A stretch of DNA of 64,000 nucleotides, taken from assembly GCF_001698205.1 (NCBI RefSeq), contig NZ_CP016591.1:2604001-2668000 (forward strand), in the 5' to 3' direction. This document shows positions 8,374 to 63,580 of this stretch, in pieces. The notes under the pieces were generated by a model, which worked only from the letters and a program-made list of their open reading frames with translations, was not told the origin of the DNA and ran no database searches. This stretch comes from Tsuneonella dongtanensis (GTDB lineage: Bacteria > Pseudomonadota > Alphaproteobacteria > Sphingomonadales > Sphingomonadaceae). Position numbers and translations under genes: made by a program. Every line of letters begins with the position of its first letter. The stretch's first letter is position 1.

Positions 8374-8385
8374 TTGTCCGGACAA
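8374..8385. promoter_or_regulatory. Operator palindrome TTGTCCGGACAA upstream of the 8437 operon
   Basis: This is a perfect 12-base palindrome ending 51 bases before the ATG at 8437. It is identical in core to seven other intergenic sites in this window. Unlike the sites at 35516-35544, 39215-39243 and 39991-40019, no TTGnnn hexamer sits 17 bases before its ACAACT end. The promoter geometry here may therefore differ. Confidence 0.75.
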
Positions 8386-8436
8386 CTTCGGGTATCGCTC
8401 AGACTGTAGGGATCGACTGCATCGAGGCGAGGAGCG

Positions 8437-9621
8437 ATGGGCAAAAGCCCTGTTGCCATAGTCGGGGCTGGGCCAGTCGGTGTATGCGCCGCGCACTTTC
8501 TCGCGCGTCGTGGAATCCCGAGCGTCCTCTTCGAAGCTGAGCCTGAGCCCGCAATTGACCTTCGCGCTTCGACATTTCATCCGCCGACGCTCGAGATGCT
8601 GGCGAAAGTTGGCCTCGCCGAACCGCTTATTGCTCTAGGGCTCGTGACCCCCGATTGGCAGGTTCGCATGCACGAAACCTGCGAGAGGGCGAAATTCGAT
8701 TTAGCGCACATCGCTTCAGACACACCCTACCCGTTTCGCCTGCAGTGCGAGCAATCGACCCTCGTTTCGCTCGCGCTCGAAACAGCACGCAACGAAGCCG
8801 CGATCGAGGTTCGCATGGGCGCGCGAGTGACCGCGGTTCAGCAAGACAGCGAAAGCGTGACGCTCTCGATTGCCGGGAGCGAACCGGTTCGCGCTCGTTT
8901 TGCGATCGCGGCAGACGGGGCGCGCAGCGCGCTGCGAGAAGCGGTGGGTGCCAGGTTCGAGGGGTTTACCTATCCCGAGACGACGATTCTGGCGACGACG
9001 ACTTTCCCGTTCCACGAGCACATCGACGGGTTGTCCAACGTCAATTACTGTTGGGCGACCGAAGGAACGTTCAGCCTGCTGCGATTGCCGAAGGTCTGGC
9101 GCTGCTCGCTCTACGCGGATGACGGCGAAAGCATCGAAGAGGCCACCACGCCCGCGTCTGTCACCGCAAAGCTTGAACGCATCGTACCGGGCGCAAGTCA
9201 GCACGACGTCCAGGAAATCCGGGCCTACCGCATCCACCAGCGAATCGTCGAACGCTACGATCACGGACGCGTCTTGCTCGCGGGCGATGCCGCGCATCTC
9301 AATTCACCGTCGGGGGGCATGGGGATGAACGGGGGCATCCATGACGCTTACGAACTGGCCGACACTCTTGCCGAAGTTTTCGCCGACGGCGATCTTGCGC
9401 GGCTCGGACGGTATTCGCGTCGCCGCAAGGCCGTGGCCGAGGACGCGATCCTGGCGCAGGCCCACCGCAACCGGACGCGCATGCAGGAACGCGACCCGGT
9501 CAAGCGCCGCGAAGAACTCGAAGCGCTGCAGCGCATCGCGAACGATCCGGTACGCTGCCGCGAGCACCTCCTGAAGACGTCGATGATCGCGGGGCTGAGG
9601 CAGGCGGAGGCGATTTCGTGA
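8437..9621 (+). CDS. FAD-dependent aromatic-type monooxygenase
   Basis: This is a 394-residue group A flavoprotein monooxygenase of the UbiH/PHBH/MhpA type. It carries the N-terminal dinucleotide motif GAGPVG (residues 10-15), a DG motif (ADGARSAL) and the GD motif (LLAGDAAH, Asp about 284, followed by NSPSGGMGMNGG), which binds the FAD ribityl chain. Such enzymes hydroxylate aromatic or enolic substrates with NAD(P)H and O2 in the cytoplasm. It is the first gene of a four-gene operon, and its stop overlaps the next GTG start. The operator at 8374-8385 lies just upstream. The substrate is unknown; by position it could initiate ring attack. Confidence 0.9.
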   Translation: MGKSPVAIVGAGPVGVCAAHFLARRGIPSVLFEAEPEPAIDLRASTFHPPTLEMLAKVGLAEPLIALGLVTPDWQVRMHETCERAKFDLAHIASDTPYPFRLQCEQSTLVSLALETARNEAAIEVRMGARVTAVQQDSESVTLSIAGSEPVRARFAIAADGARSALREAVGARFEGFTYPETTILATTTFPFHEHIDGLSNVNYCWATEGTFSLLRLPKVWRCSLYADDGESIEEATTPASVTAKLERIVPGASQHDVQEIRAYRIHQRIVERYDHGRVLLAGDAAHLNSPSGGMGMNGGIHDAYELADTLAEVFADGDLARLGRYSRRRKAVAEDAILAQAHRNRTRMQERDPVKRREELEALQRIANDPVRCREHLLKTSMIAGLRQAEAIS

Positions 9622-10268
9622 CCGCGGCCGTACTCACACCGATGGCGAACCCCACGGTCGAAGCGGAATTTCGCGCGTTGTTGCCGCCGACCCTGCCGTG
9701 GGTCACCGGCCGTCTGGTAAGCGACGAGCCCGACAGCATGAAACGCCTGGTCGCCTATGCGGAAGGCATGGCGGGCGCGATGCGCCAGTTCGACAGCCTG
9801 GCACTTTCGGCTGTCGCATTTGCCTGCACCGGGTCGAGCTACCTCGTCGGGCGCGAGCGCCAGGCGGAATTGGACGAAGCGATCTCCGTACCGGTAATCT
9901 GGGCGACCGATGCCATCGAGCGGCGGCTGGCCATGCTGGGTGCGCGCCGGATCGCGGTCGTTTCCCCATACCCGCCCGAACTGCACGCATCGGGTCTCAC
10001 TTATTGGCGCAAAGGCGGTCTGGAGATCGTATTCGACGCCCGCGTGGACATCGGCTCTGCAGATACCCGTGCGATCTATGCCCTGGGCAGCGATGCCGCG
10101 AATGAAGCGCTGGAATCCGCGCGTGCCGCACGGCCCGACGCCATTCTGCTCTCAGGCACCGGGATGCCGACGCTACCGCTTCTCGACCCGGACGGCACCC
10201 CGCCCGTGGTTTCTTCCAACCTGTGCCTGGCGGACGCTCTCGTTGCCGCCGTGGGAGATCGCTCATGA
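9618..10268 (+). CDS. Asp/Glu-racemase / maleate-isomerase-like protein with a single active-site Cys
   Basis: This 216-residue protein has the two-fold fold signatures of the Asp/Glu/hydantoin racemase, maleate cis-trans isomerase and arylmalonate decarboxylase family. The first active-site loop is AFACTGSS with Cys70. The second loop, which normally carries a cysteine, reads LLSGTGMP with Gly180 in that position. Maleate isomerase and racemases use two cysteines. Arylmalonate decarboxylase keeps only the second, so this is the opposite single-Cys arrangement. The GTG start overlaps the monooxygenase stop (GTGA), and its own stop overlaps the aldehyde dehydrogenase ATG. Isomerisation or decarboxylation of a cleaved ring product is plausible, but the reaction is not established. 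Confidence 0.8.
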   Translation: MTAAVLTPMANPTVEAEFRALLPPTLPWVTGRLVSDEPDSMKRLVAYAEGMAGAMRQFDSLALSAVAFACTGSSYLVGRERQAELDEAISVPVIWATDAIERRLAMLGARRIAVVSPYPPELHASGLTYWRKGGLEIVFDARVDIGSADTRAIYALGSDAANEALESARAARPDAILLSGTGMPTLPLLDPDGTPPVVSSNLCLADALVAAVGDRS

Positions 10269-42321: not shown

Positions 42322-42322
42322 C

Positions 42323-50595: not shown

Positions 50596-52010
50596 TGGGC
50601 TGGCCCCTCGCGGAACATCTCGATCGTCGCGGGGGTGCCCGTCTGCCGGATCAGGGCCTGGCGCCGCAGGAAGCGGAGCATGCCCTCGTCGCCCATCCGG
50701 CTGGGCCCGAGGCCCGAACCTTTGCGCGAATGATTGGTGGCGTCGCCCACCATGGTCGTCAGCGCACCGTCCTGCAGCGAGATCGCGCCGGCATCGATCC
50801 GCTCGCCGATCGCCGCGGCTTCCTCCGCATCACCCGCGATGACCGAGGCGGACAGCCCGTAATCCCCCGCGTTGGCGAGCGCGATCGCCTCTTCGACGGT
50901 GTCGAACGGGATCACCGGGATGACCGGCCCGAAGGTTTCCTCGCGCATGAGCGCCATTTCGTCGGTCAGGCCGGTCAGCACCGTGGGGCGCATGTATCGT
51001 CCGCCGCCCTGCGTCTCGATCTCGCCGCCGGTGTGGATGGTCGCGCCCCTGGCCCGTGCATCGTCGATCTGCGCTGCGACCTTGGCGGCCTGCGCGGGGA
51101 AGATGAACGGGCCGAGATGGCCGCGCGTCGGGTCGGCGCCCGTCGTTTCCACCGCTTCTGCCGCCTCGACCAGCGCGGCGAGGAACGGCTGGAAGATGGC
51201 GCGCGCGACATAGACCCGCTCGATCGACTGGCATCCCTGCCCGGTCGCCACCACCGAGGCGCGGAGCGCGACCTGCGCCGCGTGGACCGGGTCCGCCGAG
51301 GCGGTAACGATCATCGGGTCCTTGCCGCCAAGTTCGAGGTTCGCCGGGATCAGCGCGCGGGCCGCCGTCTCGGCGACCTTGCGCCCGGTCGCCGTCGACC
51401 CGGTGAAGCAGACGTAGTCGACACTGGCGATCAAAGCCTGACCGGTCTCCGCGCCGCCCATGACGTAGGCCAGCGGCAGTTCGGGCACTTCGGCCAGCGC
51501 CGCGCGCAGCGGCTCGACGAAGCGCGGGGTCACTTCGCTCGGCTTGATGAGCGCGGCGCACCCGGCGGCGAGCGCGGGCAGCGCATCGATGTGCGACAGC
51601 AGCAGCGGGAAGTTCCACGGAGCGATGGCGCCGAACAGCGGATAGGCCGACCAGCGCGGTTCGATGGTGAAGCCGGGCGTTGCGGACGGCGTGGCGTCGC
51701 GCGGCAGCCCCGCGAACACCTGCGGCCCGCGCATGGCCCAGCCGCGCGCGCGGCGCGCCACACTCTCGAGTTCGACCCGGGCGATGGCGGTGCGCCCCGT
51801 GTCGACTTCCAGCGCGGCGACGATCGGGGCCGCGTGGCGCTCCAACGCGTCGGCAAAAGCTTGAAGGATCGCCGCCCGCCCTTCCGGACCGCGCGCCTCC
51901 CACTCGGGCTGCAACGACCGCAGTCGGGCCGCAGCCTCTGCGACGGCGCCCGGCGAATCCTCGTCGAACGCGTAGTCCGCTTCGCCGGTGCGCGGGTTGA
52001 TCGCCTTCAT
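50592..52010 (-). CDS. Aldehyde dehydrogenase, coniferyl-aldehyde-dehydrogenase-like length
   Basis: This is a 472-residue ALDH superfamily protein from ATG 52010. It has APWNFPLLLSHIDALPAL, the catalytic-glutamate motif NLELGGKDPMIV, the nucleophile in ATGQGCQSIERV and EETFGPVIPV. The shorter C-terminus and MVGDATNHSRKGSGLG fit the coniferyl-aldehyde/benzaldehyde dehydrogenase subgroup. It oxidises an aldehyde in the second ring-opening operon and is only distantly related to the enzyme at 10265. Confidence 0.92.
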   Translation of the reverse strand: MKAINPRTGEADYAFDEDSPGAVAEAAARLRSLQPEWEARGPEGRAAILQAFADALERHAAPIVAALEVDTGRTAIARVELESVARRARGWAMRGPQVFAGLPRDATPSATPGFTIEPRWSAYPLFGAIAPWNFPLLLSHIDALPALAAGCAALIKPSEVTPRFVEPLRAALAEVPELPLAYVMGGAETGQALIASVDYVCFTGSTATGRKVAETAARALIPANLELGGKDPMIVTASADPVHAAQVALRASVVATGQGCQSIERVYVARAIFQPFLAALVEAAEAVETTGADPTRGHLGPFIFPAQAAKVAAQIDDARARGATIHTGGEIETQGGGRYMRPTVLTGLTDEMALMREETFGPVIPVIPFDTVEEAIALANAGDYGLSASVIAGDAEEAAAIGERIDAGAISLQDGALTTMVGDATNHSRKGSGLGPSRMGDEGMLRFLRRQALIRQTGTPATIEMFREGPAQ

Positions 52011-52915
52011 TGCTGCCCTGCCCAGCAGTCGACGATCGCATCGCCGCGCGCGAACCAGGCTTCGGGTCGCGCCGCGAGCTTCGTTATCAGGCTCTCGAAC
52101 GCTTCGATGCGATAGGGCAGGCCCATGATATACGGCGTCACGTGGATCGGGAGCATTCGTCCGCCCCCTTCGCGGGCTGCTTCTGCGGCGAGCCAGTCGA
52201 AGGCGTCTTCCATGCTTTGCGCCCAACTGTCGGCGGATTGCTGCTGCACGGCGACGATCTGGCGGTCGGACAGCTCGTGATTGAGCGGCAGATCGATCAG
52301 GCCGTTCGCGAAGCGATAGGGCAGTTCGTCGTTCACCCAGTCGCAGCAATAGGTGAGGCCTGCCCGCTTGAGCAGGTCGAGCGTGCGCCAAGACTGCGAG
52401 CGCGCGATCGACAGCCAGCCGCTGGGCTTAACCCCGCACGCCCCGAGCCGTGCGAGCGAGTCGTCGATCAAGGCGCGCTCGTCGGCTTCGGCCAAGGTTG
52501 AATCGATTGTGCCGTTCATGTCGGTCGCGTGCGCGATCACTTCGTGCCCGCCCTCTACGACCGCGGCGAGCAGTTCGGGATAGCGTTCGGCCACCGCGGC
52601 ATTCGTTGCGAATGAAGCGCTTACGCCTGCCTTCTCGAACGCGTCGAGGAAGCGCCAGGCGCCGACCCGGTTGCCGTAATCGCGCGCAGTGTAGTGGCGA
52701 ACGTCCGGATAGGCGGTCTGCATGTGCCCCGGAGCCGTGAACGCCCCGCCGGGCACTATGGGAAACCACTCGAGGCTGACGCAGCCCCACACTGCCACCG
52801 AGCCCTGCGGCCAGGTCACCGGCGGGCGTTCATGCAGGTTCGACCAGGCGTAAAGATCGTGGTCGTAACCGTTGGAACGGTTGGGATATTCGAGATAGCC
52901 GGGATCGAGCGTCAT
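52007..52915 (-). CDS. Polysaccharide-deacetylase-fold protein, divergent copy A
   Basis: This 302-residue member of the deacetylase/allantoinase superfamily has DYGNRVGAWRFLDAFEKAGVSASFATN, HEVIAHATDMNGTID in the place of the family's SHGYxW, and SGWLSIARSQSWRTLDLL. The acidic EEG pair of PuuE-type proteins is replaced by SLEWFP. It adjoins a second copy at 52912-53790 with four bases overlap; the pair could form a hetero-oligomer or act in sequence on cyclic amide bonds. Confidence 0.82.
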   Translation of the reverse strand: MTLDPGYLEYPNRSNGYDHDLYAWSNLHERPPVTWPQGSVAVWGCVSLEWFPIVPGGAFTAPGHMQTAYPDVRHYTARDYGNRVGAWRFLDAFEKAGVSASFATNAAVAERYPELLAAVVEGGHEVIAHATDMNGTIDSTLAEADERALIDDSLARLGACGVKPSGWLSIARSQSWRTLDLLKRAGLTYCCDWVNDELPYRFANGLIDLPLNHELSDRQIVAVQQQSADSWAQSMEDAFDWLAAEAAREGGGRMLPIHVTPYIMGLPYRIEAFESLITKLAARPEAWFARGDAIVDCWAGQQ

Positions 52916-53790
52916 ATCTGCGCCCTCCACGCATCGACGATCTCGCCAGCGCGCGCGATCCACGCCCGGCCGTCGGCAGCGATGTGCCGCAGCGCCTCCT
53001 CGAACGGACCGATGCGGTGCGGCTGGCCGATCAGGTAGGCATGCAAGGGGATGCACATGACCGTGCCCGACGCCTCCCCCTCGGCGGCCAGCCGCTCGTA
53101 TTGCCGGATCAGCGTATCGGCGTATTCGCGCGGGCTCATGTTGTAGATGAAGAAGCCGTAGTGATCGTTGACCTCGAGGCTGTAGGGGATCGAGGCGAGC
53201 CTGCCTTTGGCGACCTTCACCTCCTGCACCTGGTCGTCGTGATAGAGGTCGCAGGTATAGTCCAGCCCGTACTCGGCGATCAGGTCGAGCGTGCGCGGGG
53301 TGTGGGTCAGTGCTGGGGCGAGCCAGCCGCGGATCGTCTGCCCGGTCGCCTCGCGCACCGTGCGGATCGAATCCGCGATAATCGCGCGCTCCTGGTCCTC
53401 GGACATCTCGTAGGCGTAGCGGGTGTTGTAGATGCCGTGGCTGAAGAACTCCCACCCGCGCGCGACGCCGTCCGCGACCACTTCGGGGTGATGCTGGCAG
53501 AGCGCCACCGACAGGCTGACCGATCCCGGAAATCCGTGTTTCGACATGACCTCGGCCATGCGCCAGTGGCTGACCCGGTTCGAATGATCGCGGTGCGAAT
53601 ATCCGACGACATCGGGATGCGGCCGCGCCCAGGCCTTGCGCTTGGGATGCGCGGGCGGATCGATTTCGTAGTATTCGAGGTTCGGCGCCACCCACACCGC
53701 GCAGGTCTTGCCGCCCGGCCAGACGATCTTCCTGCGCCCGCGATAGGGCGCGTAATCGTACAGCTCCGGATCGCCGGATCCCTCGCGCAC
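52912..53790 (-). CDS. Polysaccharide-deacetylase-fold protein, divergent copy B
   Basis: This 292-residue protein starts at GTG 53790, one base after the isochorismatase-like stop. It shows WVAPNLEYYEIDPPAHP, DHSNRVSHWRMAEVMSKHGFPGSVS, FFSHGIYNTRYAYEMSEDQER and RGWLAPALTHTPRTLDL. SHGIYNTRY matches the metal-binding block of allantoinase-like deacetylases, but the EEG pair is again absent. It is related to 52007-52915 and, more distantly, to 24055-24924. Confidence 0.83.
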   Translation of the reverse strand: MREGSGDPELYDYAPYRGRRKIVWPGGKTCAVWVAPNLEYYEIDPPAHPKRKAWARPHPDVVGYSHRDHSNRVSHWRMAEVMSKHGFPGSVSLSVALCQHHPEVVADGVARGWEFFSHGIYNTRYAYEMSEDQERAIIADSIRTVREATGQTIRGWLAPALTHTPRTLDLIAEYGLDYTCDLYHDDQVQEVKVAKGRLASIPYSLEVNDHYGFFIYNMSPREYADTLIRQYERLAAEGEASGTVMCIPLHAYLIGQPHRIGPFEEALRHIAADGRAWIARAGEIVDAWRAQI

Positions 53791-53791
53791 G

Positions 53792-54472
53792 TCAGCGCGC
53801 CTCCAGCCAGTCGATCACCGCCTGCACCGGCTCGACGTCGGCGTACTTGAGCTGGAGGTCGGTGAGGTTGGCGAAGTGGTAGCTTTCGTGCTTGTCGGCA
53901 CAGGTCTCGATAGGGACGATCGTGCGGTAGCCGTGGCTCAGCGCATCCACCGCCGTCGCCCGCACGCAGCCGCTGGTCGAGCCGCCGGTCACCACCACGG
54001 TATCGACCTTGTGCCACACGAGATAGCTCGCAAGCGGCGTCTCAAAGAACGCACTCGGCATGCGCTTGGTGTACTGGAGGTCGTCGGGCTGGATGTCGCA
54101 GCGTTCGTCGTACTGGTGCCGCTCGGACTCGTACTTGATGTTCTGCAAGGAGTCGGGCGTGTCGGTGCGTGTGCCCCACACCCCCGCGTCGCCGGCGTCG
54201 TCCTTGTAGGCGACCCGTGTCCACACCACCGGCATGCCCCGCTCCCGCGCTAGGCGGCTGATCGTGTTCGCATGGTCTATCTGGCGCGGGTCGGTCTCGT
54301 AGGCGGTCGCGAACCTGTCGATCCGGGTGTAGGCCTGCTGGAAATCGACGTTCACGATGGCGAGCTTTTCGCCGAAGCCGAACTTCCTGCGCGCCGGGTT
54401 CGCCATCACTTCCTCGAACAGCTGGCGTGCGGTCTTGCCGTCGCTGACCATTCGCGTGCCGATCAAATCCAT
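53792..54472 (-). CDS. Isochorismatase-family cysteine hydrolase, N-carbamoylsarcosine-amidase-like
   Basis: This 226-residue protein has the complete Asp-Lys-Cys triad: Asp43 in NVDFQQAY, Lys136 in YTKRMPSAF and Cys169 in GGSTSGCVRATAVDA. The stretch after Cys169 (LSHGYRTIVPIETCADKHESYHFANL) resembles N-carbamoylsarcosine amidase and ureidoacrylate amidase. I start at ATG 54472, which follows AGGAG, rather than 11 codons earlier. It would hydrolyse an N-carbamoyl or amide product. It is promoter-proximal, next to the operator at 54537-54548. Confidence 0.9.
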   Translation of the reverse strand: MDLIGTRMVSDGKTARQLFEEVMANPARRKFGFGEKLAIVNVDFQQAYTRIDRFATAYETDPRQIDHANTISRLARERGMPVVWTRVAYKDDAGDAGVWGTRTDTPDSLQNIKYESERHQYDERCDIQPDDLQYTKRMPSAFFETPLASYLVWHKVDTVVVTGGSTSGCVRATAVDALSHGYRTIVPIETCADKHESYHFANLTDLQLKYADVEPVQAVIDWLEAR

Positions 54473-54536: not shown

Positions 54537-54548
54537 TTGTCCGGACAA
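54537..54548. promoter_or_regulatory. Operator palindrome TTGTCCGGACAA between divergent operons
   Basis: This perfect 12-base palindrome lies in the 86-base gap between the isochorismatase-like (minus) and alpha/beta-fold (plus) genes, and ends 10 bases before GTG 54559. A TTGTCG hexamer lies 16 bases before its ACAACT end. It can serve both operons. Confidence 0.78.
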
Positions 54549-54558: not shown

Positions 54559-55899
54559 GTGATAACGCGCCACGTACTCACCATTCCGGCTTCCGGCCGC
54601 CGTGTCCACTACCGCAAGTGCGGCAGCGGGCCCTTGCTTCTGATGGTGCATCAGAGCCCGCGCAGTTCCGCCGAGTACGAGCGGCTCATGCGCGAGTGGA
54701 GCGCGCATTTCACCTGCGTGGCGCCCGACACACCGGGCTTCGGCCAGTCCGATCCGCTGCCCGGCGAACCCGAGATCGCTGATTTCGCAGACGCGCTCGA
54801 CGAATTCCTGGCGGCGCTCGGAGTCGAAACCTGCGCGGCCTATGGGTTCCACTCCGGCGGGATCATCCTCGTCACCGCGCTCAAGCGACACCCGGAGCGT
54901 TTCTCTGGGCTCGCGATCGGCGGTTACGCGATCTGGACCGAGGAAGAGATGCGCATTTTCGGCGACAGCTACCTGCCGCCGTTCCGCCCTTCTTCATACG
55001 GCGAGCACCTCACGTGGCTTTGGAACCGGATGCTCGAGCAGAGCTGGTTCTTCCCGTGGTTCGATATTCGCGACGAAGCGCGCCTGTCGGTCGCGCACAC
55101 CGATGTCGGCCGGGTCAACGCCGCGGTGATGGAGATGCTCGACGCGGGCGACGCCTATCGCGCGGGATACGGCGCGGTCCTGCGCGCGCCCCGCGACATT
55201 CCGGCACCCGAATCCATAACGGCTCCAGTTCTGATCACCGCGTACCAGGGCGATCCATTGTGTGCGCATATCGAGCGGCTCGGAGACATGCCGCCGAATT
55301 GGCACGCGCATGCAGTCGCCACGCCGGCCGAGCACGAAGCGGAGAGCCTCGCCTTCCTTCGCCGCCATGCAACCGACGCACCGGCGCTAATCGCGGAAGA
55401 TGCGAACGAAGGCTGGCTCACTATCGGCGAGGGCCTGATCCACTGGCGCGGAGAGCGCGATGCCGAGCGGATGGTGCTCCAGGCTCCCGCAAACGAACTG
55501 ACCGACCCGGGGCCGAACGAAGTCGCGATCGACGTGCCGGGACACGGGCTGTCGTCGGATTTCGCCGACATGGAGGACGCGATAGAGGCCGCACGCGATG
55601 CACTCGGCGCGCGGCACATCGCCTGGCCGCAGGTCCCGCAGGGCGACCCCGACCTGCTCTACCCCGACCTCGCCCCCGACAGGTACGGCAGCCATCTGCT
55701 TCGCGCATGGAGCGCGGCCCGCGCCGAGGCGCTGTTCCGCCCCTGGTACGCCGCCGACAAGGATCACGCGCTGCCGGTCGATTCCGCCGCGCTCGACCCT
55801 GAAGCCATCGCCCGCCGCGCCCGTGCCCGCCTGCGCGCCGGCGGCGCGGCGCGTCGCTTCCACAAGCTTCTCATCGACCGAACCGGAGACCCCGCTTGA
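54559..55899 (+). CDS. Alpha/beta-hydrolase-fold protein with His in the nucleophile position and a C-terminal extension
   Basis: From GTG 54559 this is a 446-residue protein, about 170 longer than single-domain hydrolases. Residues of about 1-270 form the fold (LLLMVHQSPRSSAEYERLM, VAPDTPGFGQSDPLPGE). The elbow reads YGFHSGGIILV, so the GXSXG serine is His98, as in 21532-22413. The extension has a second hydrolase-like strand (EVAIDVPGHGLSSDF) and may be a degenerate second domain. I choose GTG because the in-frame ATG upstream would translate through the operator. It opens the operon that runs to 61248. Confidence 0.82.
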   Translation: MITRHVLTIPASGRRVHYRKCGSGPLLLMVHQSPRSSAEYERLMREWSAHFTCVAPDTPGFGQSDPLPGEPEIADFADALDEFLAALGVETCAAYGFHSGGIILVTALKRHPERFSGLAIGGYAIWTEEEMRIFGDSYLPPFRPSSYGEHLTWLWNRMLEQSWFFPWFDIRDEARLSVAHTDVGRVNAAVMEMLDAGDAYRAGYGAVLRAPRDIPAPESITAPVLITAYQGDPLCAHIERLGDMPPNWHAHAVATPAEHEAESLAFLRRHATDAPALIAEDANEGWLTIGEGLIHWRGERDAERMVLQAPANELTDPGPNEVAIDVPGHGLSSDFADMEDAIEAARDALGARHIAWPQVPQGDPDLLYPDLAPDRYGSHLLRAWSAARAEALFRPWYAADKDHALPVDSAALDPEAIARRARARLRAGGAARRFHKLLIDRTGDPA

Positions 55900-56378
55900 C
55901 CGACATACGTACCGCGATGCCGCTACTCGCCCGCCACGAAGGCGTGTGGGACGGGACCTACACCTATTTCAACGCCGCCAACGAGAAGATTGACGAGCAT
56001 GCAAGCCGCCTGTTCTGCCGCTTTCCCGAAGACGGCCCGCACGCCTATCACCAGACCAACCATTACACCTGGGCCGACGGCCGCACCGACGTGCGCGATT
56101 TTCCCGCCGAGTACCGCGATGGGCGCGTCTGGTGGGACAACGACCTCATCAAGGGCTGGGCGGCCGAAGTCCCGCTCGACGAGTACAACCGCACAGTCAT
56201 GCTCTACTGGCAGCGGCAGGGCGATCCGTCGCTCTATCTCTACGAGATGATCCAGCTCGCCGACGACGGGCAGAGCCGCTGCCGCACGTGGCACTGGATC
56301 CGCAATGGCCAGCTCGAGACCCGAACCGCCATTCAGGAGACGCTCGTCACACGCGACTGGCGGTCGCTGGAAGGGTAG
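55896..56378 (+). CDS. Small lipocalin-like (DUF3598-like) protein, paralogue of 50140-50595
   Basis: This 160-residue protein starts at TTG 55896, coupled to the hydrolase stop. It shares the HEGxWDG, WxDGRTD and CRTWHW blocks with its paralogue. No signal peptide is seen. The function is probably binding of a hydrophobic intermediate; the family call is tentative. Confidence 0.72.
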   Translation: MTDIRTAMPLLARHEGVWDGTYTYFNAANEKIDEHASRLFCRFPEDGPHAYHQTNHYTWADGRTDVRDFPAEYRDGRVWWDNDLIKGWAAEVPLDEYNRTVMLYWQRQGDPSLYLYEMIQLADDGQSRCRTWHWIRNGQLETRTAIQETLVTRDWRSLEG

Positions 56379-56387
56379 ACTGGATCC

Positions 56388-57764
56388 ATGCCGCAGACGC
56401 TGGTCGACAGGATCTGGGACGCGCACCGGGTGGCAACCACCCCCGGCGGCGCGGACCTGATCGCGATCGACCGGGTGTTTCTGCACGAGCGGACCGGCGC
56501 TTCGGCCCTGAAGCGCATGGCCGAGATGGGCCGCTCCGTGCACGATCCGGCGCGGGTGTTCGCAGTGACCGATCACATCGTCGATACCCGCCCCGGCCGA
56601 ACCGACGCGACGCTGATGCCCGGCGGGCAGGCCTTCATCTCCGAGACGCGCGAGGCCTGCCGCGCGGCGGGCATCACGCTGTTCGACGTCGACAGCCCCG
56701 ACCAGGGGATCGTCCACGTGATCTCGCCCGAACTCGGCATCGTGCTGCCCGGCATCACCCTCGTCGCGCCCGACAGCCACACGTGCACCCAGGGGGCCTT
56801 CGGCGCGCTCGCGTGGGGCATCGGTTCGAGCGAGGCCGAGCACGCGATGGTCACCGGCACCCTGCGCCTGCCGCGTCCGCAGACCATGCGTGTCAGCTTC
56901 GACGGGGCACTCTCCCCCGGGGTCACCGCCAAGGATATGGCACTCGCGCTCATCGCACGCCACGGCGCAGGCGGCGGCGCGGGCTTCGCGGTCGAGTTCG
57001 CCGGAAGCGCGGTGCGCGCGCTCGACATGGAAGCGCGCATGACGCTGTGCAACATGGCAACCGAGTTCGCGGCGATGACCGGGATCGTCGCGCCGGACGA
57101 AGCGGCCTTTGCCTGGCTCGCTGGCCGCCGCTACGCCCCCGCAGCCTTCGACCATCCCCACTGGGCGACGCTCCGCAGCGACGACGCCGCGACGTTCGAC
57201 CGCGAGATTGCGATCGACGCTTCCTCGATCGCGCCGATGGTCAGTTGGGGCACCAGCCCCGAACAGGCGATCCCGGTGGACGGAGCGGTGCCCCAGGGGC
57301 CGGCGAGAGCGCACGACTACATCGGCCTCGATGCCGGACACGCGATCGGTGGGACCCCGGTCGACGCCGCCTTCATCGGCAGTTGCACCAACAGCCGGCT
57401 GTCGGACTTGCGCAAGGCCGCAGCGCTCCTGCGCGGCAAGCGGATCGCGCCATCGATCCGCAAGGCGCTCGTTGTGCCCGGCAGCATGGCGGTGAAGCGT
57501 GCGGCGGAAGCCGAAGGGCTCGACAAGGTGTTCGAGGCGGCCGGGTTCGAGTGGCGGATGAGCGGCTGCTCGCTGTGCTTCTATGCGGGCGGCGAAGGCT
57601 TCGCGCCGGGCAGCCGGGTGATCTCCAGCACCAACCGCAATTTCGAAGGGCGCCAGGGCCCGGGCATCCGCACGCACATTGCCTCGCCGGAAACGGTCGC
57701 CGCAAGCGCGCTCGCGGGGGCCATCGCCGATCCGCGGCCGCTGCTCGCAAGGGTCGCCGCATGA
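56388..57764 (+). CDS. LeuC-like hydro-lyase large subunit (isopropylmalate/methylmalate dehydratase type)
   Basis: This is a 458-residue aconitase-superfamily large subunit. The three [4Fe-4S] ligands are Cys333 in GSCTNSR and Cys394 and Cys397 in SGCSLC. It also has APDSHTCTQGAFGALAWGIGSSEAEH. It pairs with the LeuD-like subunit encoded next. In a catabolic operon with an HMG-CoA-lyase-like gene and CoA-transferase it is more likely a (dimethyl)malate, citramalate or homologue dehydratase than biosynthetic LeuC. The substrate is inference. Confidence 0.9.
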   Translation: MPQTLVDRIWDAHRVATTPGGADLIAIDRVFLHERTGASALKRMAEMGRSVHDPARVFAVTDHIVDTRPGRTDATLMPGGQAFISETREACRAAGITLFDVDSPDQGIVHVISPELGIVLPGITLVAPDSHTCTQGAFGALAWGIGSSEAEHAMVTGTLRLPRPQTMRVSFDGALSPGVTAKDMALALIARHGAGGGAGFAVEFAGSAVRALDMEARMTLCNMATEFAAMTGIVAPDEAAFAWLAGRRYAPAAFDHPHWATLRSDDAATFDREIAIDASSIAPMVSWGTSPEQAIPVDGAVPQGPARAHDYIGLDAGHAIGGTPVDAAFIGSCTNSRLSDLRKAAALLRGKRIAPSIRKALVVPGSMAVKRAAEAEGLDKVFEAAGFEWRMSGCSLCFYAGGEGFAPGSRVISSTNRNFEGRQGPGIRTHIASPETVAASALAGAIADPRPLLARVAA

Positions 57765-58390
57765 ATCCCGTGACGACCATCACCAGCCCGGCCGTGCCGC
57801 TGCTGCGCGACAACATCGACACCGACACGATCATCCCCAGCCGTGAGATGAAGAGCACGGGACGCGCGGGCCTTGCCGACGGGCTGTTCGCGCCGTGGCG
57901 CTACACCGATGCCGCGAGCCGCACGCGCGATCCTTCGTTCGTGCTCAACCAGCGCGACGCGATCGGCACCCGCCTCATCCTCGCGGGCAAAAACTTCGGC
58001 TGCGGTTCGAGCCGAGAGCACGCGGTCTGGGCGCTAGCCGAGTTCGGCATCGAGGCGATCATCGCCCCCAGCTTCGCGCCGATCTTCAAGGCCAACTGCA
58101 TCCGCAACGGCCTCTTGCCAATCGAACTGCCCGAAGAGGTCGTTCGCTCGCTCGCCTGGGAGATGGTGCGGATCGACCTCGCGGCACAGACCGTCAGCGC
58201 GGGCGAGGAGAGCTGGCCGTTCGAAATCGATCCCGAGGCGAAGGAGATGCTGCTCGGCGGGCTCGATGCGATCGACGTTACGCTGAACCATCTCAAGGAC
58301 ACGTTCGACCGCTGGATGCGCGTGGACATGACCAGGAGGCCATGGGTCTATCTTTCGCCGCGTCGGACGGATGACGGAGCGCAGCGATGA
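57761..58390 (+). CDS. LeuD-like hydro-lyase small subunit
   Basis: This 209-residue small subunit is the partner of 56388-57764, coupled by ATGA. It shows LRDNIDTDTIIPSREMK, GKNFGCGSSREHAVWAL and IFKANCIRNGLLPIEL. The C-terminal tail (RRPWVYLSPRRTDDG) is basic and longer than the family norm. It provides the mobile active-site domain of the dehydratase. A four-base overlap joins it to a possible small gene at 58387. Confidence 0.9.
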   Translation: MNPVTTITSPAVPLLRDNIDTDTIIPSREMKSTGRAGLADGLFAPWRYTDAASRTRDPSFVLNQRDAIGTRLILAGKNFGCGSSREHAVWALAEFGIEAIIAPSFAPIFKANCIRNGLLPIELPEEVVRSLAWEMVRIDLAAQTVSAGEESWPFEIDPEAKEMLLGGLDAIDVTLNHLKDTFDRWMRVDMTRRPWVYLSPRRTDDGAQR

Positions 58391-58575
58391 CCGCTTTCCT
58401 ACACGCACAGGATCCATGCACATTCCCGGTCTGGGAAGGGAGGACCCTGTTGGATTCGCAAAGGTTACATGTCCAGCACGGATTTTGCGGAAATTGCCTT
58501 CATGACCAATCATTTGGCGCCAGGGCGCGTTTGCAGAAAAAGCCCCCTTTCACTGTGACAGGTCCCGTCCGATGA
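58387..58575 (+). CDS. Possible 62-residue coupled small protein
   Basis: This reading frame begins with ATGA overlapping the LeuD-like stop and ends with ATGA overlapping the HMG-CoA-lyase-like ATG, exactly like the real genes around it. It encodes 62 residues with a CysXXCys pair (GFCGNCLHD). Against it, codon use is unlike the neighbours (TTA, CTA, AGG, GGA, lower G+C in third positions) and no family is recognised. It may be a genuine small gene, or leftover intergenic sequence with chance overlaps. Confidence 0.35.
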   Translation: MTAFLHAQDPCTFPVWEGRTLLDSQRLHVQHGFCGNCLHDQSFGARARLQKKPPFTVTGPVR

Positions 58576-59489
58576 CCCGTATCCTCGTCTCCGAAGTCGG
58601 CCCGCGCGACGGCTTGCAGTCGATCGACCGGGTCATGCCGCTCGAAGCCAAGAAGGCGTGGATCGCCGCCGAGGCCGCCGCGGGCGTGCGCGAGATCGAG
58701 GTCGGCAGCTTCGTTCCGCCCAGCCTCCTGCCGCAGATGGCCGACACCACCGAACTTGTCGCTTTCGCCAAGACCATTCCCGGCCTCAACGTCGTCGCGC
58801 TGGTGCCCAACGCCAAGGGCGCGGCGCGCGCGGTCGAGGCCGGGGTCGACGCGATGAGCATCCCGTTCTCGATGAGCGAAACGCACTCGATCAAGAACGT
58901 CCGCAAGGACCATCCGGCCATGTTGCTGGAAATCGAGGAAGCCGCGCGCATCGCCCATGCCGGCGGCAAGCACTTCGCGGTCGGGCTCGCCACCGCGTTC
59001 GGGTGCACGATCGAAGGCGCGGTGCCGCAGGACACCGTTGTACGCTTGGCGGAGAAGGCGCTCGAGGCGGGCGCCGACGAGGTCGGGCTGTCGGACACGA
59101 CCGGCTATGCCGACCCGGCCCAGGTCAGGCGGCTTGTCCAGGCCGTCCGGCGCGTCGCCGGCGACCGGCTGACCACGCTCCATCTCCACAACACCCGCGG
59201 CCTCGGCCTCGCCAATGCGGTGGCGGGGCTGGAGGTCGGGATCACCACGCTCGACGCCTCGCTCGGCGGGCTCGGCGGCTGCCCGTTCGCCCCGGGAGCA
59301 TCGGGCAATATCGTCACCGAAGACCTTGTGCTGATGCTCAACAGCATGGGTTTCGATACGGGAATCGACCTCGAGAAACTGCTCGAAGTGCGCAAGATCG
59401 TCGCCGAGGCGCTGCCGGGCGAGCCGCTCTACGGGTTCACGCCCGATGCCGGACCGATGCTCGACTACGCCGAAAGGATCGCAGGATGA
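58572..59489 (+). CDS. HMG-CoA-lyase-like aldolase
   Basis: This 305-residue TIM-barrel protein of the HMGL family has the metal and substrate motif GPRDGLQ near the start, EVGSFVPPSLLPQM, HLHNTRGLGLANAVAGLEVG and the signature GGLGGCPFAPGASGN containing the active-site cysteine. It cleaves a 3-hydroxy-3-methylglutaryl-CoA-like thioester to acetyl-CoA or a related ester and an oxo acid. It follows the LeuCD-like genes and precedes a CoA-transferase, forming a dehydratase-activation-cleavage set. Confidence 0.92.
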   Translation: MTRILVSEVGPRDGLQSIDRVMPLEAKKAWIAAEAAAGVREIEVGSFVPPSLLPQMADTTELVAFAKTIPGLNVVALVPNAKGAARAVEAGVDAMSIPFSMSETHSIKNVRKDHPAMLLEIEEAARIAHAGGKHFAVGLATAFGCTIEGAVPQDTVVRLAEKALEAGADEVGLSDTTGYADPAQVRRLVQAVRRVAGDRLTTLHLHNTRGLGLANAVAGLEVGITTLDASLGGLGGCPFAPGASGNIVTEDLVLMLNSMGFDTGIDLEKLLEVRKIVAEALPGEPLYGFTPDAGPMLDYAERIAG

Positions 59490-60670
59490 GCGACGGCCCC
59501 GCTCCGCTCGCCGGCATCCGCGTCGTCGAATTCACCCACATGGTGATGGGGCCCACCGTGGGGCACATCCTCGCCGGGCTCGGTGCAGACGTCGTCCGCG
59601 TCGAGCCGATCGGCGGCGATCAGACACGGCGCTTGCTCGGTTCGGGCGCGGGGTATTTCCCGATGTACAACCGCGGCAAGGCGTCGATCTGCCTCGACCT
59701 CAAGTCGGACGCGGGGCTGGAGGTCGCGCGCGACCTGTGCGCGAACGCCGACGTGCTGGTCGAGAACTTCCGCCCCGGCGCGCTCGACCGGCTGGGCCTA
59801 GACTTCGACACGCTGTCCGAAACCAATCCGCGGCTGATCTATTGCTCTGAAAAGGGCTTCCTTCCCGGCCCGTACGAACAGCGCACCGCGCTGGACGAAG
59901 TTGCGCAGATGATGGGCGGGCTCGCCTACATGACCGGGCCGCCGGGACGCCCCTTGCGCGCCGGGGCGAGCGTGATCGACGTGACCGGCGGCATGTTCGG
60001 CGTGATCGGCGTGCTCGCCGCGCTCGAGGAGCGGCACCGCACCGGGCGCGGGCAGAAGGTCGTCGCATCGCTGTTCGAGACCACCGTCTATCTCGTCGGC
60101 CAACACATGGCCCAGTTCGCCGCGACCGGGAAACCCGCCGCGCCGATGCCCGCGCGGGTCAGCGCCTGGGCGATCTACGATGTATTCGAGACGCGGGACG
60201 AGCCGGTGTTCATCGGCGTCGTGACCGACGCGCTGTGGGAGAAATTCTGCGGCCTGTTCGGGCTCGACGACCTCTGGGCCGACGAGAGCTTGCGCGCCAA
60301 CAACAGCCGCGTGCTCGCTCGCGACCGGATCATGCCCCGCATCCGCGACCTCATCGGCACCATGACCCGCGCGGAGGTGATCGAGAAACTCGACAGCACC
60401 GGCATGCCATTCGCGCCGATCGGGCGACCGGAGGATCTGTTCGACGACCCCCACCTTGCCGCGCATGGGTTGGAACCGGTCACGCTCGATGACGGACGCG
60501 AAACGAGACTTCCGACCATTCCGCTCGAGATGGACGGCAAGCGCCCCGGCGGCGCGACCGCCCTGCCTCGCCCCGGCGCCGATGCGAGGATGGTGCTCGC
60601 CGGGCTCGGCTATGACGAAGACCGAATAGAGGCGCTGCTGTCCGGCGGCGCGGTGGAGGAAACGCGATGA
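59486..60670 (+). CDS. CaiB/BaiF family CoA-transferase C
   Basis: This is a 394-residue class III CoA-transferase. It opens with GIRVVEFTHMVMGPTVGHILAGLGADV; NRGKASICLDLKS and the catalytic-aspartate region TALDEVAQMMGGLAYMTG follow. ATG overlaps the HMGL stop. By context it activates the acid that the HMG-CoA-lyase-like enzyme cleaves. It differs substantially from copies A and B. Confidence 0.93.
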   Translation: MSDGPAPLAGIRVVEFTHMVMGPTVGHILAGLGADVVRVEPIGGDQTRRLLGSGAGYFPMYNRGKASICLDLKSDAGLEVARDLCANADVLVENFRPGALDRLGLDFDTLSETNPRLIYCSEKGFLPGPYEQRTALDEVAQMMGGLAYMTGPPGRPLRAGASVIDVTGGMFGVIGVLAALEERHRTGRGQKVVASLFETTVYLVGQHMAQFAATGKPAAPMPARVSAWAIYDVFETRDEPVFIGVVTDALWEKFCGLFGLDDLWADESLRANNSRVLARDRIMPRIRDLIGTMTRAEVIEKLDSTGMPFAPIGRPEDLFDDPHLAAHGLEPVTLDDGRETRLPTIPLEMDGKRPGGATALPRPGADARMVLAGLGYDEDRIEALLSGGAVEETR

Positions 60671-61248
60671 GGATTGCTGCGCTAGCCCTGGGATTGCTTC
60701 TCGCTGGATGTGCAGCGACCCCGCCGCCGCAATTTGCCGCGACATCGTCACCTGGGGTGGAGGCGCCGAAGGATCGCCTCCCCACCGACGTACGCCGTAC
60801 GACGCTGATCGTGCGCAACATGGAAGACAGCCTGAAGCTCTACCGCGACGTCGTTGGCATGAAGGTCAACTACGACACCGTGGTCGAGATGTCGGGCGTC
60901 GCGCTGCCCGCGGGTGTTCCCGGCGCGAAAGCGCGGCTGGTGCTGCTCAATGCGAACGACCCGTTTATCGGCTGGATCGGCCTCATGGAGTGGCTCGACC
61001 CGAAGCTCGCCGATCCCGGTCCCTATCCGAAGCGCATGGGGCCGGGCGGCGTGGTGATCGTTATGAATACCGACGACGTCGAAGGGCGCTGCGCCGCCGC
61101 GAAGTCGGTACCCGGCGTGACCTTCACCGCGGAGCCGCGGCTCCAGGAATACGAGGGCCGCAACGGCGGTCCGCCGATCCGCGTGATGGGCTGCAACTTC
61201 TTCGACCCCGACGGCATCCTGATCGAGATGAACCAGCTGCTGAAGTGA
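60667..61248 (+). CDS. VOC-domain lipoprotein
   Basis: This 193-residue protein has a lipoprotein signal with lipobox LLLAGC (Cys at residue 15), followed by a VOC module (RRTTLIVRNMEDSLKLYRDVVGM ... GCNFFDPDGILIEMNQLLK). It should be anchored by lipid in the inner or outer membrane facing the periplasm. Its VOC domain resembles the secreted forms at 11725 and 20999. It ends the operon from 54559; ATG overlaps the CoA-transferase stop. Confidence 0.83.
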   Translation: MRIAALALGLLLAGCAATPPPQFAATSSPGVEAPKDRLPTDVRRTTLIVRNMEDSLKLYRDVVGMKVNYDTVVEMSGVALPAGVPGAKARLVLLNANDPFIGWIGLMEWLDPKLADPGPYPKRMGPGGVVIVMNTDDVEGRCAAAKSVPGVTFTAEPRLQEYEGRNGGPPIRVMGCNFFDPDGILIEMNQLLK

Positions 61249-61252: not shown

Positions 61253-61945
61253 TCAGAACGGCTTCACCGCCCCCAGGAAGCATACCGTCGCGATGGTGAT
61301 CCAGTAGATGTAGGCCGCTATCCGCGCCTGGCCGATCTCGCGCGCCAGTGCCGCTTCCTGCTCGGCATCGGGACCCGCGGCGAGAATGCGGAAGCGCGCC
61401 GTCCAGCGCCGCATGACGAGCCGCAGGAACAACCCGATGCAGAGCGCGAAGGCGTACATCAGCATCTTGGTCGGGTACCAGAAATTGCCTTCAGAAACCT
61501 CCACCGGCCCGCTGCCGCCATATGCCATGACGGACACGACGATGATTGCCGCGATCAGGGGATAGCGCAGCAGCTCCTCGGTGCGGGTCACCTTGATCCC
61601 GATGTCGGTCTCGCGCTTGATGAAGGCGGTCCAGGTCATCGCCAGCCAGACCGCGAAGAACAGCCACATCAGCCAGATGCCGCCGCCATCGAGCGAGGGC
61701 ACGAAGCCGTAGAGCTTGCCCATGTGGAGCCCCAGTGGGAGCAGCAGCACGATGCCGGTCCGCGCCAGGATGTCGATGCGGTAGGCGGTTTCCATGTGTC
61801 GGCGGCGCTCTTCCAACGGGAGCGCCGGATTGGTCACGTGGTAGCTCGTCTGGAACACCCCCCACTCGCCGCCGAGCCAGTAGACCATCGCGAGGATGTG
61901 CAGCCAGCGAAGGATGCTGAGCTCGTTCGTCGTCAGGAATTCCAT
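61253..61945 (-). CDS. Multi-pass membrane protein, paralogue of 39260-39952
   Basis: This 230-residue membrane protein has five or so hydrophobic segments and starts at ATG 61945 behind GGGAGGGG. Like its paralogue it opens with a histidine-bearing helix of the form H-x8-LG-x3-GVF (RWLHILAMVYWLGGEWGVF). It also keeps a conserved internal W-x4-W region. Each copy is associated with the operator regulon. Function is unknown; electron or metal handling is a guess from the histidines. Confidence 0.78.
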   Translation of the reverse strand: MEFLTTNELSILRWLHILAMVYWLGGEWGVFQTSYHVTNPALPLEERRRHMETAYRIDILARTGIVLLLPLGLHMGKLYGFVPSLDGGGIWLMWLFFAVWLAMTWTAFIKRETDIGIKVTRTEELLRYPLIAAIIVVSVMAYGGSGPVEVSEGNFWYPTKMLMYAFALCIGLFLRLVMRRWTARFRILAAGPDAEQEAALAREIGQARIAAYIYWITIATVCFLGAVKPF

Positions 61946-61966
61946 TTGCCCCTCCCCTTCGGCCCA

Positions 61967-62338
61967 CTATTCGCGCGCCAGTCGCTCGACCCATTCCATG
62001 ATCGGCGGGTCGTCAGCCTCCATCGCTTCGAGTTCCTGCTGCAGCGCGCGCATGACCCGCGCGATGTAGGCCCGCGTGGCCAGCGCGCGTTCCTCGCCCG
62101 CGGCGCGGTCGGGCGCATAGGTCTCGATATCCTCGCGCCGGATGGTTCCGCTCTTCTCGAGGAGTCGCTCGACCGTATCGAGCCGCTCGCGCAGCACCGA
62201 AACTTCGCCGACGAGCGCCATCACGATCGACAGCAGGCGGTCGGTCGCGGGGTCGTCGAAGTACTCGGGCCGCTTGCCTTTTGCCCGCTTCCCCGAGCGG
62301 GAGATCCAGTCGATCTGTTCGTCCGCGGGATCGCTCAC
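61967..62338 (-). CDS. Small coiled-coil protein of unknown function
   Basis: This 123-residue protein starts at GTG 62338 and overlaps the methyltransferase stop. The N-terminus is basic (SRSGKRAKGKRPEYF). Residues of about 30-60 form a heptad-rich helix (VMALVGEVSVLRERLDTVERLLE) and the C-terminus is a second acidic helix. No catalytic motif or helix-turn-helix is visible. It may form a complex with the methyltransferase or act as a small adaptor. Confidence 0.7.
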   Translation of the reverse strand: MSDPADEQIDWISRSGKRAKGKRPEYFDDPATDRLLSIVMALVGEVSVLRERLDTVERLLEKSGTIRREDIETYAPDRAAGEERALATRAYIARVMRALQQELEAMEADDPPIMEWVERLARE

Positions 62339-63549
62339 GCCGCGGCAGCCTGTGCAGCGGGCTTCCACGCACCGTACGCGTTCCACACCGCGGCGCGGCC
62401 GAAGTCCTCGCCCTCGCCCGACGGCGCGTCGGGGAAGATGTCCCGGTCGACAACCGCGCGCACCCCGATCACAAACTGGCTGTCCTTCGGGAAGCCGGCA
62501 TCGGCCATGACCTGCTTCAGGTCATGTCCGTGCATCGCCGACCAGAAGGGCTCGTTGTTATTGAACGCGTCCCAGTCGCGCATGAATTGCTCGAACAGCG
62601 GCATCTCGTCCGAGTATTGCGGTTGCTCGACGTGCAGGATCAGCCCGCCGGGCGCGAGGACGCGGTGACATTCGGCGAGCAGCCGCGGCATCGCTTTCGA
62701 CGACAGTTCGTGCAGGAACATTGTCGTCTGCACCCAGTCGAAATAGCCATCCGGCCAGCGCGACAGGTCCTCGCCGCTCGCCTGCACGAAGCGGATGTTC
62801 TTCACGCCGAGCCCAGCCGCCCGTGCCGCGCCATAACGCAGCGAGGCGGCAGCCGTGTCGATCGCGATTACCTCTGCGTCGGGAAAGGCCTGCGCGATGG
62901 GAATGGCGTTGTGGCCCACCGTCGCCCCAACATCCAGGATCCGCAGCGGTTGCCAATCAGGACGCTCCCTGCGCGCCCAAGCGGCGACTGCCTGACCCCC
63001 GCCGTCGTTGAGCCCGCCGAGCTGACCTCCAGTGGTCGCGAAGATCCCGACGTCGTAGTTCGCGCCGACGGACACGTCGCCGGGCCGCTCCTCCGAGTGA
63101 TAACCGCCCGGCTGGCAGTGGATGTCGACCGCGGTCTGATAGAATGGCTGTTCGACCTTGGGATCGAGTTCGAGCTGTCCCGAGTGCTCGTTGAACTGCC
63201 GCGCCATCGCATCGAGCGCGTCGAGCTGGCGCAGCACCACCTGGCGCCCGTTGTGCTGGCGCATCTCCATCGAATTGCGCTTTAAGCCGGACCAGAACCG
63301 GTGCCACGGATCACGGTTCATCGCGTCGCGGACTTCGTAGCGATGCTCGGGATCGCGGCCGTGCTCGGCGCGAAAGGCCGGAAGCACGCGTTTCTCGTAA
63401 GCAAGCCGGTTGCCCGCGCCGATCGCTCCCGACAGGTACTGGTTGAGCCCGGCGAGGAAGTTGAACCGCGCCGCCTCGTCGTGCGAGACGTCCGGCAGCA
63501 TGGGGTGGCGCGTGAGCGCGGTGAACGGCGGAGGAGGAGCGGCGGTCAT
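62335..63549 (-). CDS. Class I SAM-dependent methyltransferase
   Basis: This 404-residue protein has an N-terminal helical domain of about 190 residues and a C-terminal methyltransferase domain. Motif I is ILDVGATVGHNAIP, motif II EVIAIDTAAASLRYG, and WVQTTMFLHELSSKAMPRLLAECHRVLAPGGLILHVEQ covers motifs IV-VI. Three prolines follow the N-terminal MTAAP. It presumably methylates a pathway compound or demethylation partner; the acceptor is unknown. An operator lies 20 bases upstream of the start. Confidence 0.87.
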   Translation of the reverse strand: MTAAPPPPFTALTRHPMLPDVSHDEAARFNFLAGLNQYLSGAIGAGNRLAYEKRVLPAFRAEHGRDPEHRYEVRDAMNRDPWHRFWSGLKRNSMEMRQHNGRQVVLRQLDALDAMARQFNEHSGQLELDPKVEQPFYQTAVDIHCQPGGYHSEERPGDVSVGANYDVGIFATTGGQLGGLNDGGGQAVAAWARRERPDWQPLRILDVGATVGHNAIPIAQAFPDAEVIAIDTAAASLRYGAARAAGLGVKNIRFVQASGEDLSRWPDGYFDWVQTTMFLHELSSKAMPRLLAECHRVLAPGGLILHVEQPQYSDEMPLFEQFMRDWDAFNNNEPFWSAMHGHDLKQVMADAGFPKDSQFVIGVRAVVDRDIFPDAPSGEGEDFGRAAVWNAYGAWKPAAQAAAA

Positions 63550-63568
63550 CGTGATTCCGATCGCATAA

Positions 63569-63580
63569 TTTGTCCGGACA
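63569..63580. promoter_or_regulatory. Operator palindrome TTGTCCGGACAA upstream of the methyltransferase operon
   Basis: This perfect 12-base palindrome (one base uncertainty in position) lies about 20 bases before the methyltransferase start. A TTGACA on the minus strand lies at about 63604-63609, but the spacing to this operator differs from that in the three conserved promoters. It is the eighth and last copy in the window. Confidence 0.75.

Follow-up and report, generated by a model that had tools for sequence, protein, structure and literature searches.

A palindrome-marked, putatively GntR-repressed catabolic island in Tsuneonella dongtanensis

The control systems that most resemble the one considered here are those of GntR/HutC-type repressors. 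In the structure of NagR on DNA, as described in the excerpts of PMC4333415 used here, Arg48 reads the G at operator position -4, Arg38 reads the G at -5 and Gly69 anchors the wing; AraR, in the same excerpts, retains only the arginine for G-4. HutC regulons of Proteobacteria reach TonB receptors in Sphingomonadales, according to the excerpted text of PMC5343134. We describe a 12-bp palindrome, TTGTCCGGACAA, a regulator gene of the GntR/UTRA type (hereafter gntR) and the surrounding genes in a 64-kb stretch of T. dongtanensis DNA (the window, positions 2604001-2668000 of the single 3,009,495-base contig NZ_CP016591.1, which was scanned as the genome). Interpretation of this locus as a putative GntR/HutC-type repressor regulon of about 56 kb is well supported by sequence comparison. 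For the best explanation as a whole, a GntR-repressed catabolic island with a tetrapyrrole as best-guess substrate, we estimate a probability of roughly 75%, and we are highly confident in its core, the regulon and its regulator.

Genes were called with our own coding-score script, and families were assigned with Pfam for 60 proteins (8596 to just past the right end of the window) and with NCBIfam for ten of these. The gntR product is the only GntR protein among the 60, with a GntR winged helix-turn-helix domain (PF00392, E 2.4e-21, residues 16-78) and a UTRA effector domain (PF07702, E 1.8e-18, residues 134-241), and its closest relative in the Protein Data Bank (PDB) is NagR (residues 13-248, E 5.7e-21). 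The likeness to NagR/YvoA of Bacillus subtilis, a GntR/HutC protein, thus comprises a nearly full-length match, a palindromic operator, the arginine for G-4 and the wing glycine. In a regulator alignment of 62 rows, in which the window is counted twice and some genomes occur in two collections, the Arg48 equivalent is arginine and the wing glycine is glycine in every row (62/62 each), whereas the Arg38 equivalent is never arginine (Ser in 35 rows, Thr in 21, Ala in 5 and Asn in 1). Counted from the centre of the operator (half-sites TTGTCC and GGACAA), position -4 is G and position -5 is T. Unlike in NagR, the arginine that reads G-5 is therefore lost together with the G itself, which is the pattern expected of a cognate pair. 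The two systems also differ in their targets, which are N-acetylglucosamine (GlcNAc) genes for NagR and a large catabolic island here; the GG at -5/-4 of NagR/DasR is absent, and the Pfam hits of the 60 proteins include no GlcNAc genes. With the HutC regulons of PMC5343134, as excerpted, the locus shares a GntR/HutC repressor over catabolic operons plus an outer-membrane transporter, but the pathway and genes are others and the palindrome regulon is not named in those excerpts.

Distribution of the palindrome and its probable regulator

Scanning of the window with up to two mismatches yielded eight copies of the palindrome, five exact and three with one mismatch (Table 1), and none with two. 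In 100 dinucleotide shuffles searched in the same way, the mean was 1.71 matches and the largest count 6, so that eight was never reached; the expectation per 64 kb from base composition is 0.002 exact and 0.08 one-mismatch copies. The initial annotation had listed eight positions, seven of which agree with ours, while the last begins at 63570 and not at 63569. A ninth island site, with one mismatch, lies just beyond the right end, at window coordinate 64327. The genome-wide motif scan that had been proposed there was run with up to one mismatch and returned 12 places, namely the eight in the window, 64327 and three elsewhere, compared to 3 for the reversed pattern, a number equal to that of the stray copies. 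As predicted, all 5 exact copies in the complete 3.0-Mb genome fall inside the window, restricted to the island and to its gaps. The strays (861645, 1876712 and 2970493) each have their mismatch in the inner part of the palindrome; 2970493 lies within an open reading frame that scores as coding and 1876712 at the start of another, and the frames over 861645 score as non-coding, so the strays cannot all be dismissed as intragenic. With the extended 18-mer AATTTGTCCGGACAAATT and up to 3 mismatches, 8 places were found in the genome, all between window positions 8371 and 64341, with a control count of 0; site 40006 differs from the 18-mer by 4 bases and is hence outside that count.

As had been annotated, the sites sit in gaps or at gene starts: all nine island sites fall outside gene calls and occupy seven gaps. 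Only 3.7% of the interval lies outside gene calls, a figure that precedes the extension of one gene, called at 63652-63963, to 64290 in the same frame; site 64327 stays outside that gene.

The DUF1838 gene is preceded by a promoter-like sequence in which the extended operator lies in the spacer (Table 1). This was the only promoter-like match of a promoter scan in 28-37 kb, where the chance mean is 0.8, so the window match alone means little. A DUF1838 profile search of named genomes gave 118 relatives, of which 80 loci were kept (Novosphingobium, Sphingorhabdus, Erythrobacter, Porphyrobacter, Blastomonas, Sphingobium, Sandarakinorhabdus and others). These loci contain 238 sites at a tolerance of one mismatch, compared to 1 for the reversed pattern. 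In 61/80 a site lies no more than 400 bp upstream of the DUF1838 match; of the 19 loci without one, three end early at contig ends. Alignment of 74 distinct stretches gave cTTCACA-ATTTGTCCGGACAAATc-TAAAGTcaa, with both boxes exact in 35/74, and at least 5/6 bases of TTCACA and of TAAAGT at the same spacing are present in 40/62 sources (window included). In many loci from Erythrobacter, another operator follows 39 or 40 bp downstream. As the operator fills the 17-bp spacer, repression of this promoter probably occurs by occlusion. By sequence alone, the arrangement is that of a palindromic operator over its target promoter, as in GntR/HutC repressors.

The family was surveyed in 199 sampled genomes, with a regulator ortholog defined by E of at most 1e-40. 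An exact site was found in 35/199 genomes and two or more in 20/199. Orthologs of the regulator occur in 21/199, which are all 20 of the multi-site genomes plus one genome with a single site (G132); among the ortholog-less genomes, 14/178 have exactly one exact site and 0/178 have two or more (Fisher 1.4e-26, with genomes treated as independent). In ten genera the regulator is present in some genomes and absent from others; the 16 genomes of these genera that lack it contain no exact site. In addition, the strong type of DUF1838 (E<1e-60) is present in 20/21 of the regulator genomes and in none of the others. The three sampled genomes of the same genus as the window have neither the regulator nor an exact site, so the island looks acquired or patchily kept. 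The GntR protein named as a candidate in the initial annotation therefore tracks the motif across the family, with DNA-contact residues that fit the operator, and is almost certainly, on this comparative evidence, the cognate regulator of the palindrome.

Outside the family, a UTRA regulator at 35-37% identity is encoded in five genomes in which the motif is linked to DUF1838, but an equally similar one (32 and 35%) occurs in two of six genomes that lack a site near DUF1838. A one-mismatch site lies about 1.4 kb from the regulator in 3/5 of the motif genomes, and none was found there in 2/5. The other two UTRA regulators, at 32-35% identity (L193 and L199, in the genomes of L161 and L170), have a palindrome about 100 bp before their own start, one exact and one with one mismatch, hinting at the same regulator-operator pair outside the family.

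Window genes were also compared by tblastn with six whole and two 20-kb partial clusters of relatives. The block from 22.4 to 65.4 kb is largely conserved, with the isochorismatase-type protein at 82-88% in six clusters and the acyl-CoA dehydrogenase at 79-87% in eight. Gene order varies among the six whole clusters and the sites mostly remain before the same genes, in line with the earlier proposal of one regulator over multiple operons. Some sites precede genes that are siteless in the window, for example homologs of the genes at 47935 and 61253 in three relatives (G108, G142 and G089). In the six clusters, 42/46 sites lie outside called genes; G060 has a one-mismatch site inside the isochorismatase-type gene, G089 has a site at the gntR start codon, and G095 and G089 each have one site inside a gene call, near a start that was possibly called too far upstream.

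Gene content and a candidate pathway

The sites precede the receptor, coenzyme A (CoA) module, DUF1838 and deacetylase/isochorismatase operons, as first annotated and at agreeing positions, and about forty genes lie in same-strand runs that begin at a site (Table 1). The start of the receptor gene near site 40006 was re-read to 40102, where a signal peptide begins. At the left edge, the first two genes behind site 8374 were absent from the eight relatives' clusters compared (two of them only 20 kb), and window positions 1-8086 hold a 2263-aa gene that begins left of base 1 beside a 585-aa protein, by eye like a two-partner secretion pair.

Table 1. Operators, regulator and gene blocks of the island (window coordinates)
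Feature	Position	Strand	Context
Operator, exact	8374..8385		210 bp before FAD monooxygenase-like gene call (8596+); peripheral operon
MmgE/PrpD, PaaK-like ligase, amidase, HapK-like, SDR, PuuE-type imidase-like, enoyl-CoA hydratase, VOC	22410..29821	-	
GntR/UTRA (HutC-type) regulator, putative repressor	29890..30645	+	2-bp convergent gap with gene at 30648
CoA module: RipC-like lyase, MaoC hydratase, acyl-CoA dehydrogenase, two family III CoA-transferases	30648..35474	-	
Candidate promoter TTCACA-17 bp-TAAAGT of DUF1838 gene	35523..35551	+	Spacer contains extended operator
Operator, exact	35531..35542		Between divergent RipC-like lyase gene (34650-35474, -) and DUF1838 gene (35596+)
DUF1838 protein, strong type tracking regulator	35596..36501	+	Signal-peptide-like start
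TonB-dependent receptor (plug domain)	36572..39166	-	
Operator, one mismatch	39217..39228		50 bp before TonB receptor gene (39166-36572, -)
Operator, one mismatch	39245..39256		Paired with 39217 before same TonB receptor gene (39166-36572, -)
Operator, exact	39964..39975		Between conserved membrane-protein gene (39260-39943, -) and TonB receptor gene (40102, +)
Operator, one mismatch	40006..40017		42 bp from partner 39964
TonB receptor, VOC, unassigned protein, MFS, FAD oxidase, CN-hydrolase, DUF3108-like (weak)	40102..48657	+	
MDR dehydrogenase, DUF1330, calycin, aldehyde dehydrogenase, two PuuE-like deacetylases, isochorismatase-family amidase-like	48654..54472	-	
Operator, exact	54537..54548		Between divergent isochorismatase-family block (-) and hydrolase/calycin/LeuCD/HMGL block (+)
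Alpha/beta hydrolase, CpeS-like calycin, LeuC/LeuD-like, HMGL-like lyase, CoA-transferase III, VOC	54559..61248	+	
Membrane protein (paralog of 39260-39943), small protein, methyltransferase-domain protein	61253..63549	-	
Operator, exact	63570..63581		20 bp before methyltransferase-domain gene (62335-63549, -)
Operator	64327		Between divergent genes at 64290 and 64361

Several of the enzymes can be placed by family. The best named PDB relative of the isochorismatase-family protein at 53792 is N-carbamoylsarcosine amidohydrolase, the PuuE-like deacetylases score below the model cut-off, and the RipC-like lyase reaches 218 bits with a model cut-off of 375 (NCBIfam). The LeuCD-like two-subunit hydratase scores above the cut-off of PRK12466, with PF00694 for the small subunit. 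Two calycins, at 50140 and 55917, are paralogs, and the AlphaFold model of the calycin (predicted local distance difference test, pLDDT, 91.5) matches, among natural proteins, BFA1, Ycf58 (3bdr), DUF3598 and phycobilin lyase CpeS best, with nitrobindins further down. The block left of gntR encodes a HapK-like (REDY-like) protein; HapK is linked to prodigiosin. The DUF1838 model is confident (pLDDT 89) and mostly beta, possibly a new fold. To the right of the window there is a CpeT/CpcT-family gene (E 1.9e-20, L013:1454-2041), which was not found in the relatives' clusters compared.

This gene set suggests the catabolism of a cyclic imide or pyrrole. In the proposed mechanism, the GntR/UTRA repressor would bind the palindrome at its nine sites in seven gaps and block transcription, with a dimer between the -35 and -10 boxes of the DUF1838 promoter excluding RNA polymerase, until an inducer, probably a pathway intermediate, releases it from the DNA. 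The TonB receptors would import a bulky compound, which DUF1838 and VOC proteins may attack in the periplasm. PuuE-type deacetylases would then hydrolyse a cyclic imide, the isochorismatase-type enzyme the resulting half-amide, and the LeuCD-like enzyme would hydrate an alkylmaleate to an alkylmalate, before CoA transfer and C-C cleavage complete the end degradation of pyrrole- or imide-type fragments. Binding, repression, inducer, substrate and periplasmic chemistry are all parts that we infer, and the proposed imide and maleamate hydrolyses follow from likeness to the PuuE and isochorismatase families. Enzymes for steps of this kind include cyclic imide hydrolase, maleamate amidase and dimethylmalate lyase. 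The block of isochorismatase, two deacetylases and LeuCD is also present on plasmids, next to either a PEP-mutase-family lyase or an HMGL-like lyase and a CoA-transferase.

Two known routes resemble parts of this scheme. The 2,3-dimethylmaleate hydratase and lyase belong to a branch of nicotinate fermentation. That branch, too, hydrates an alkylmaleate with a LeuCD-type enzyme before cleaving a C-C bond, and three plasmid versions of the above gene block carry a lyase of the phosphoenolpyruvate (PEP) mutase family. The window differs in having CoA-transferases, HMGL- and RipC-like lyases and additional imidase-like and amidase-like steps; no dimethylmalate lyase (isocitrate lyase/PEP mutase family) was found among the 60 proteins scanned. 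The itaconate pathway of RipC shares CoA-transferases, a MaoC hydratase and an adjoining gene like that of citramalyl-CoA lyase, but here the RipC-like score is below the cut-off and the genes are part of a larger set.

As to the substrate, the HapK-like protein and the two CpeS-like calycins point to pyrroles. According to the excerpts of PMC7318184, the oxidation of chlorophyll and heme gives propentdyopents, hematinic acid and the methyl-ethyl and methyl-vinyl maleimides; hematinic acid and maleimides are cited from senescent leaves and lake sediments. This chemical breakdown would supply substrates of the proposed enzymes; as excerpted, it is a chemical route with no bacterial enzymes or genes. 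A tetrapyrrole, namely a remnant of chlorophyll or of a bilin that would yield alkylmaleimides and hematinic acid, is thus our tentative choice of substrate, at somewhat less than even odds. A link to phototrophy was considered and set aside as too weak: reaction-centre genes occur in 33/199 genomes, 8/21 with the regulator and 25/178 without (p 0.010), and none scored over the cut-off in the genome of the window.

The placement of gntR is conserved. In all 44 of the 44 loci that show all three genes, some of which may share one genome, gntR is encoded on the opposite strand, flanked by the CoA-transferase gene (30648 in the window) and the MmgE/PrpD gene (29821). The convergent gap is usually 2-20 bp (2 in the window), with outliers of -391, -37, -4, 152 and 170, and no terminator-like site was found in this gap in the window. 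If a transcript begun at 35.5 kb ran on, it would pass through gntR in antisense and enter the operator-less block at 22410-29821. On the other side of gntR, at 29821-29890, the window has 69 bp and one MmgE/PrpD-like gene, while all six of the six whole relatives' clusters have a second such gene there; the start-to-start distance is about 1.3 kb in 43/44 loci and 69 bp in the window.

Alternative readings and meaning of the proposed regulon

Several observations weigh against the reading of a GntR-repressed island that degrades a tetrapyrrole. On the side of control, no window site precedes gntR itself or the blocks at 22410-29821, 16184-22413 (one receptor and two of the three DUF1838 genes) and 12267-15161; the genome has three one-mismatch sites outside the island, one of them at a probable gene start; the conserved promoter boxes are missing in 22/62 sources; and the two-copy threshold of the family survey was chosen after the counts were known, among genomes that are related. 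An autoregulation site before the window gntR was not found, the best match being 7/12 bases, and several relatives have 10 or 11/12 there. On the side of the substrate, the best fold match of the calycin is BFA1 and not a pigment protein, no PDB entry matches the DUF1838 model below E 1e-3, and heme oxygenase, chlorophyllase and other known enzymes of tetrapyrrole ring opening are absent from the Pfam hits of the 60 proteins. A Staygreen search was empty in all genomes, controls included, and is thus uninformative, and the leaves examined by the study itself gave hematinic acid and no maleimides (PMC7318184, as excerpted).

The strongest alternative keeps the regulon and its GntR repressor and changes only the substrate, to another cyclic imide, a lactam, a ureide or an amide-bearing aromatic or natural product, and to this we give an even chance. 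The broad family assignments, with PuuE-like proteins below cut-off and an isochorismatase close to N-carbamoylsarcosine amidohydrolase, leave room for it. Moreover, the plasmid blocks of isochorismatase, deacetylases and LeuCD (L089-L092, from Sphingomonas, Acidiphilium, Sphingobium and Burkholderia) sit beside other GntR genes, with no DUF1838 in the stretches shown, whose gene tables are incomplete. None of five plasmid loci has a site with at most one mismatch, and no plasmid match to the GntR protein was found at E 1e-40. However, the LeuCD-like enzyme, the RipC- and HMGL-like lyases and the CoA-transferases would fit an alkylmaleate over ureides or purines, and the CpeS-like calycins and the HapK-like protein are in the same island.

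It is very improbable that the palindrome is a non-regulatory dispersed repeat, such as an iterated palindrome or an uptake or modification site. That pattern is seen in one relative, G072, with 36 exact copies genome-wide. The 18 of these sampled outside the island generally lack the A/T flanks that are conserved elsewhere, and no similarity among their surroundings came up in blastn, so the 36 copies are not a regulon size. The G072 copies look like an iterated palindrome or uptake-type sequence; a genome of the same genus as G072 has no exact copies of TTGTCCGGACAA. In the window's own genome, by contrast, there are 5 exact copies in one island, 9/9 island sites are intergenic, and promoter boxes are kept across species around one site, and the dispersed-repeat reading was rejected for this genome. 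Binding of the palindrome by another regulator is equally improbable: the LysR gene at 15167 lies within the same island, but it is not kept with the motif in relatives, a LysR match being found in 1/8 motif clusters (27% identity) and a GntR gene in 8/8 (two of them only 20 kb), and a palindrome with G at -4 suits a HutC-type reading.

Within the GntR-repressed island as we read it, a more far-reaching version is unlikely, namely an undescribed complete pathway that mineralises tetrapyrroles, with DUF1838 as a new periplasmic enzyme and gntR silenced by antisense read-through after induction. If true, it would provide a conserved antisense-driven on-switch from a repressor gene that has no room for a terminator between the two catabolic halves.

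In open-access titles and abstract openings, neither this regulon nor a bacterial maleimide route was described, and the regulon would be an unreported case of a familiar control type over a pathway that may be new. Chlorophyll is synthesised and broken down yearly on a 10^12 kg scale (PMC7318184, as excerpted), and no bacterial gene set for consuming chlorophyll remnants was found in the open-access literature searched. The island presents a clean case of a repressor gene lying antisense among its presumed targets, and DUF1838, a family of unknown function, gains a regulatory and pathway context. With a defined regulator, its operator and some forty genes, all in culturable sphingomonads, the question can be put to the test.

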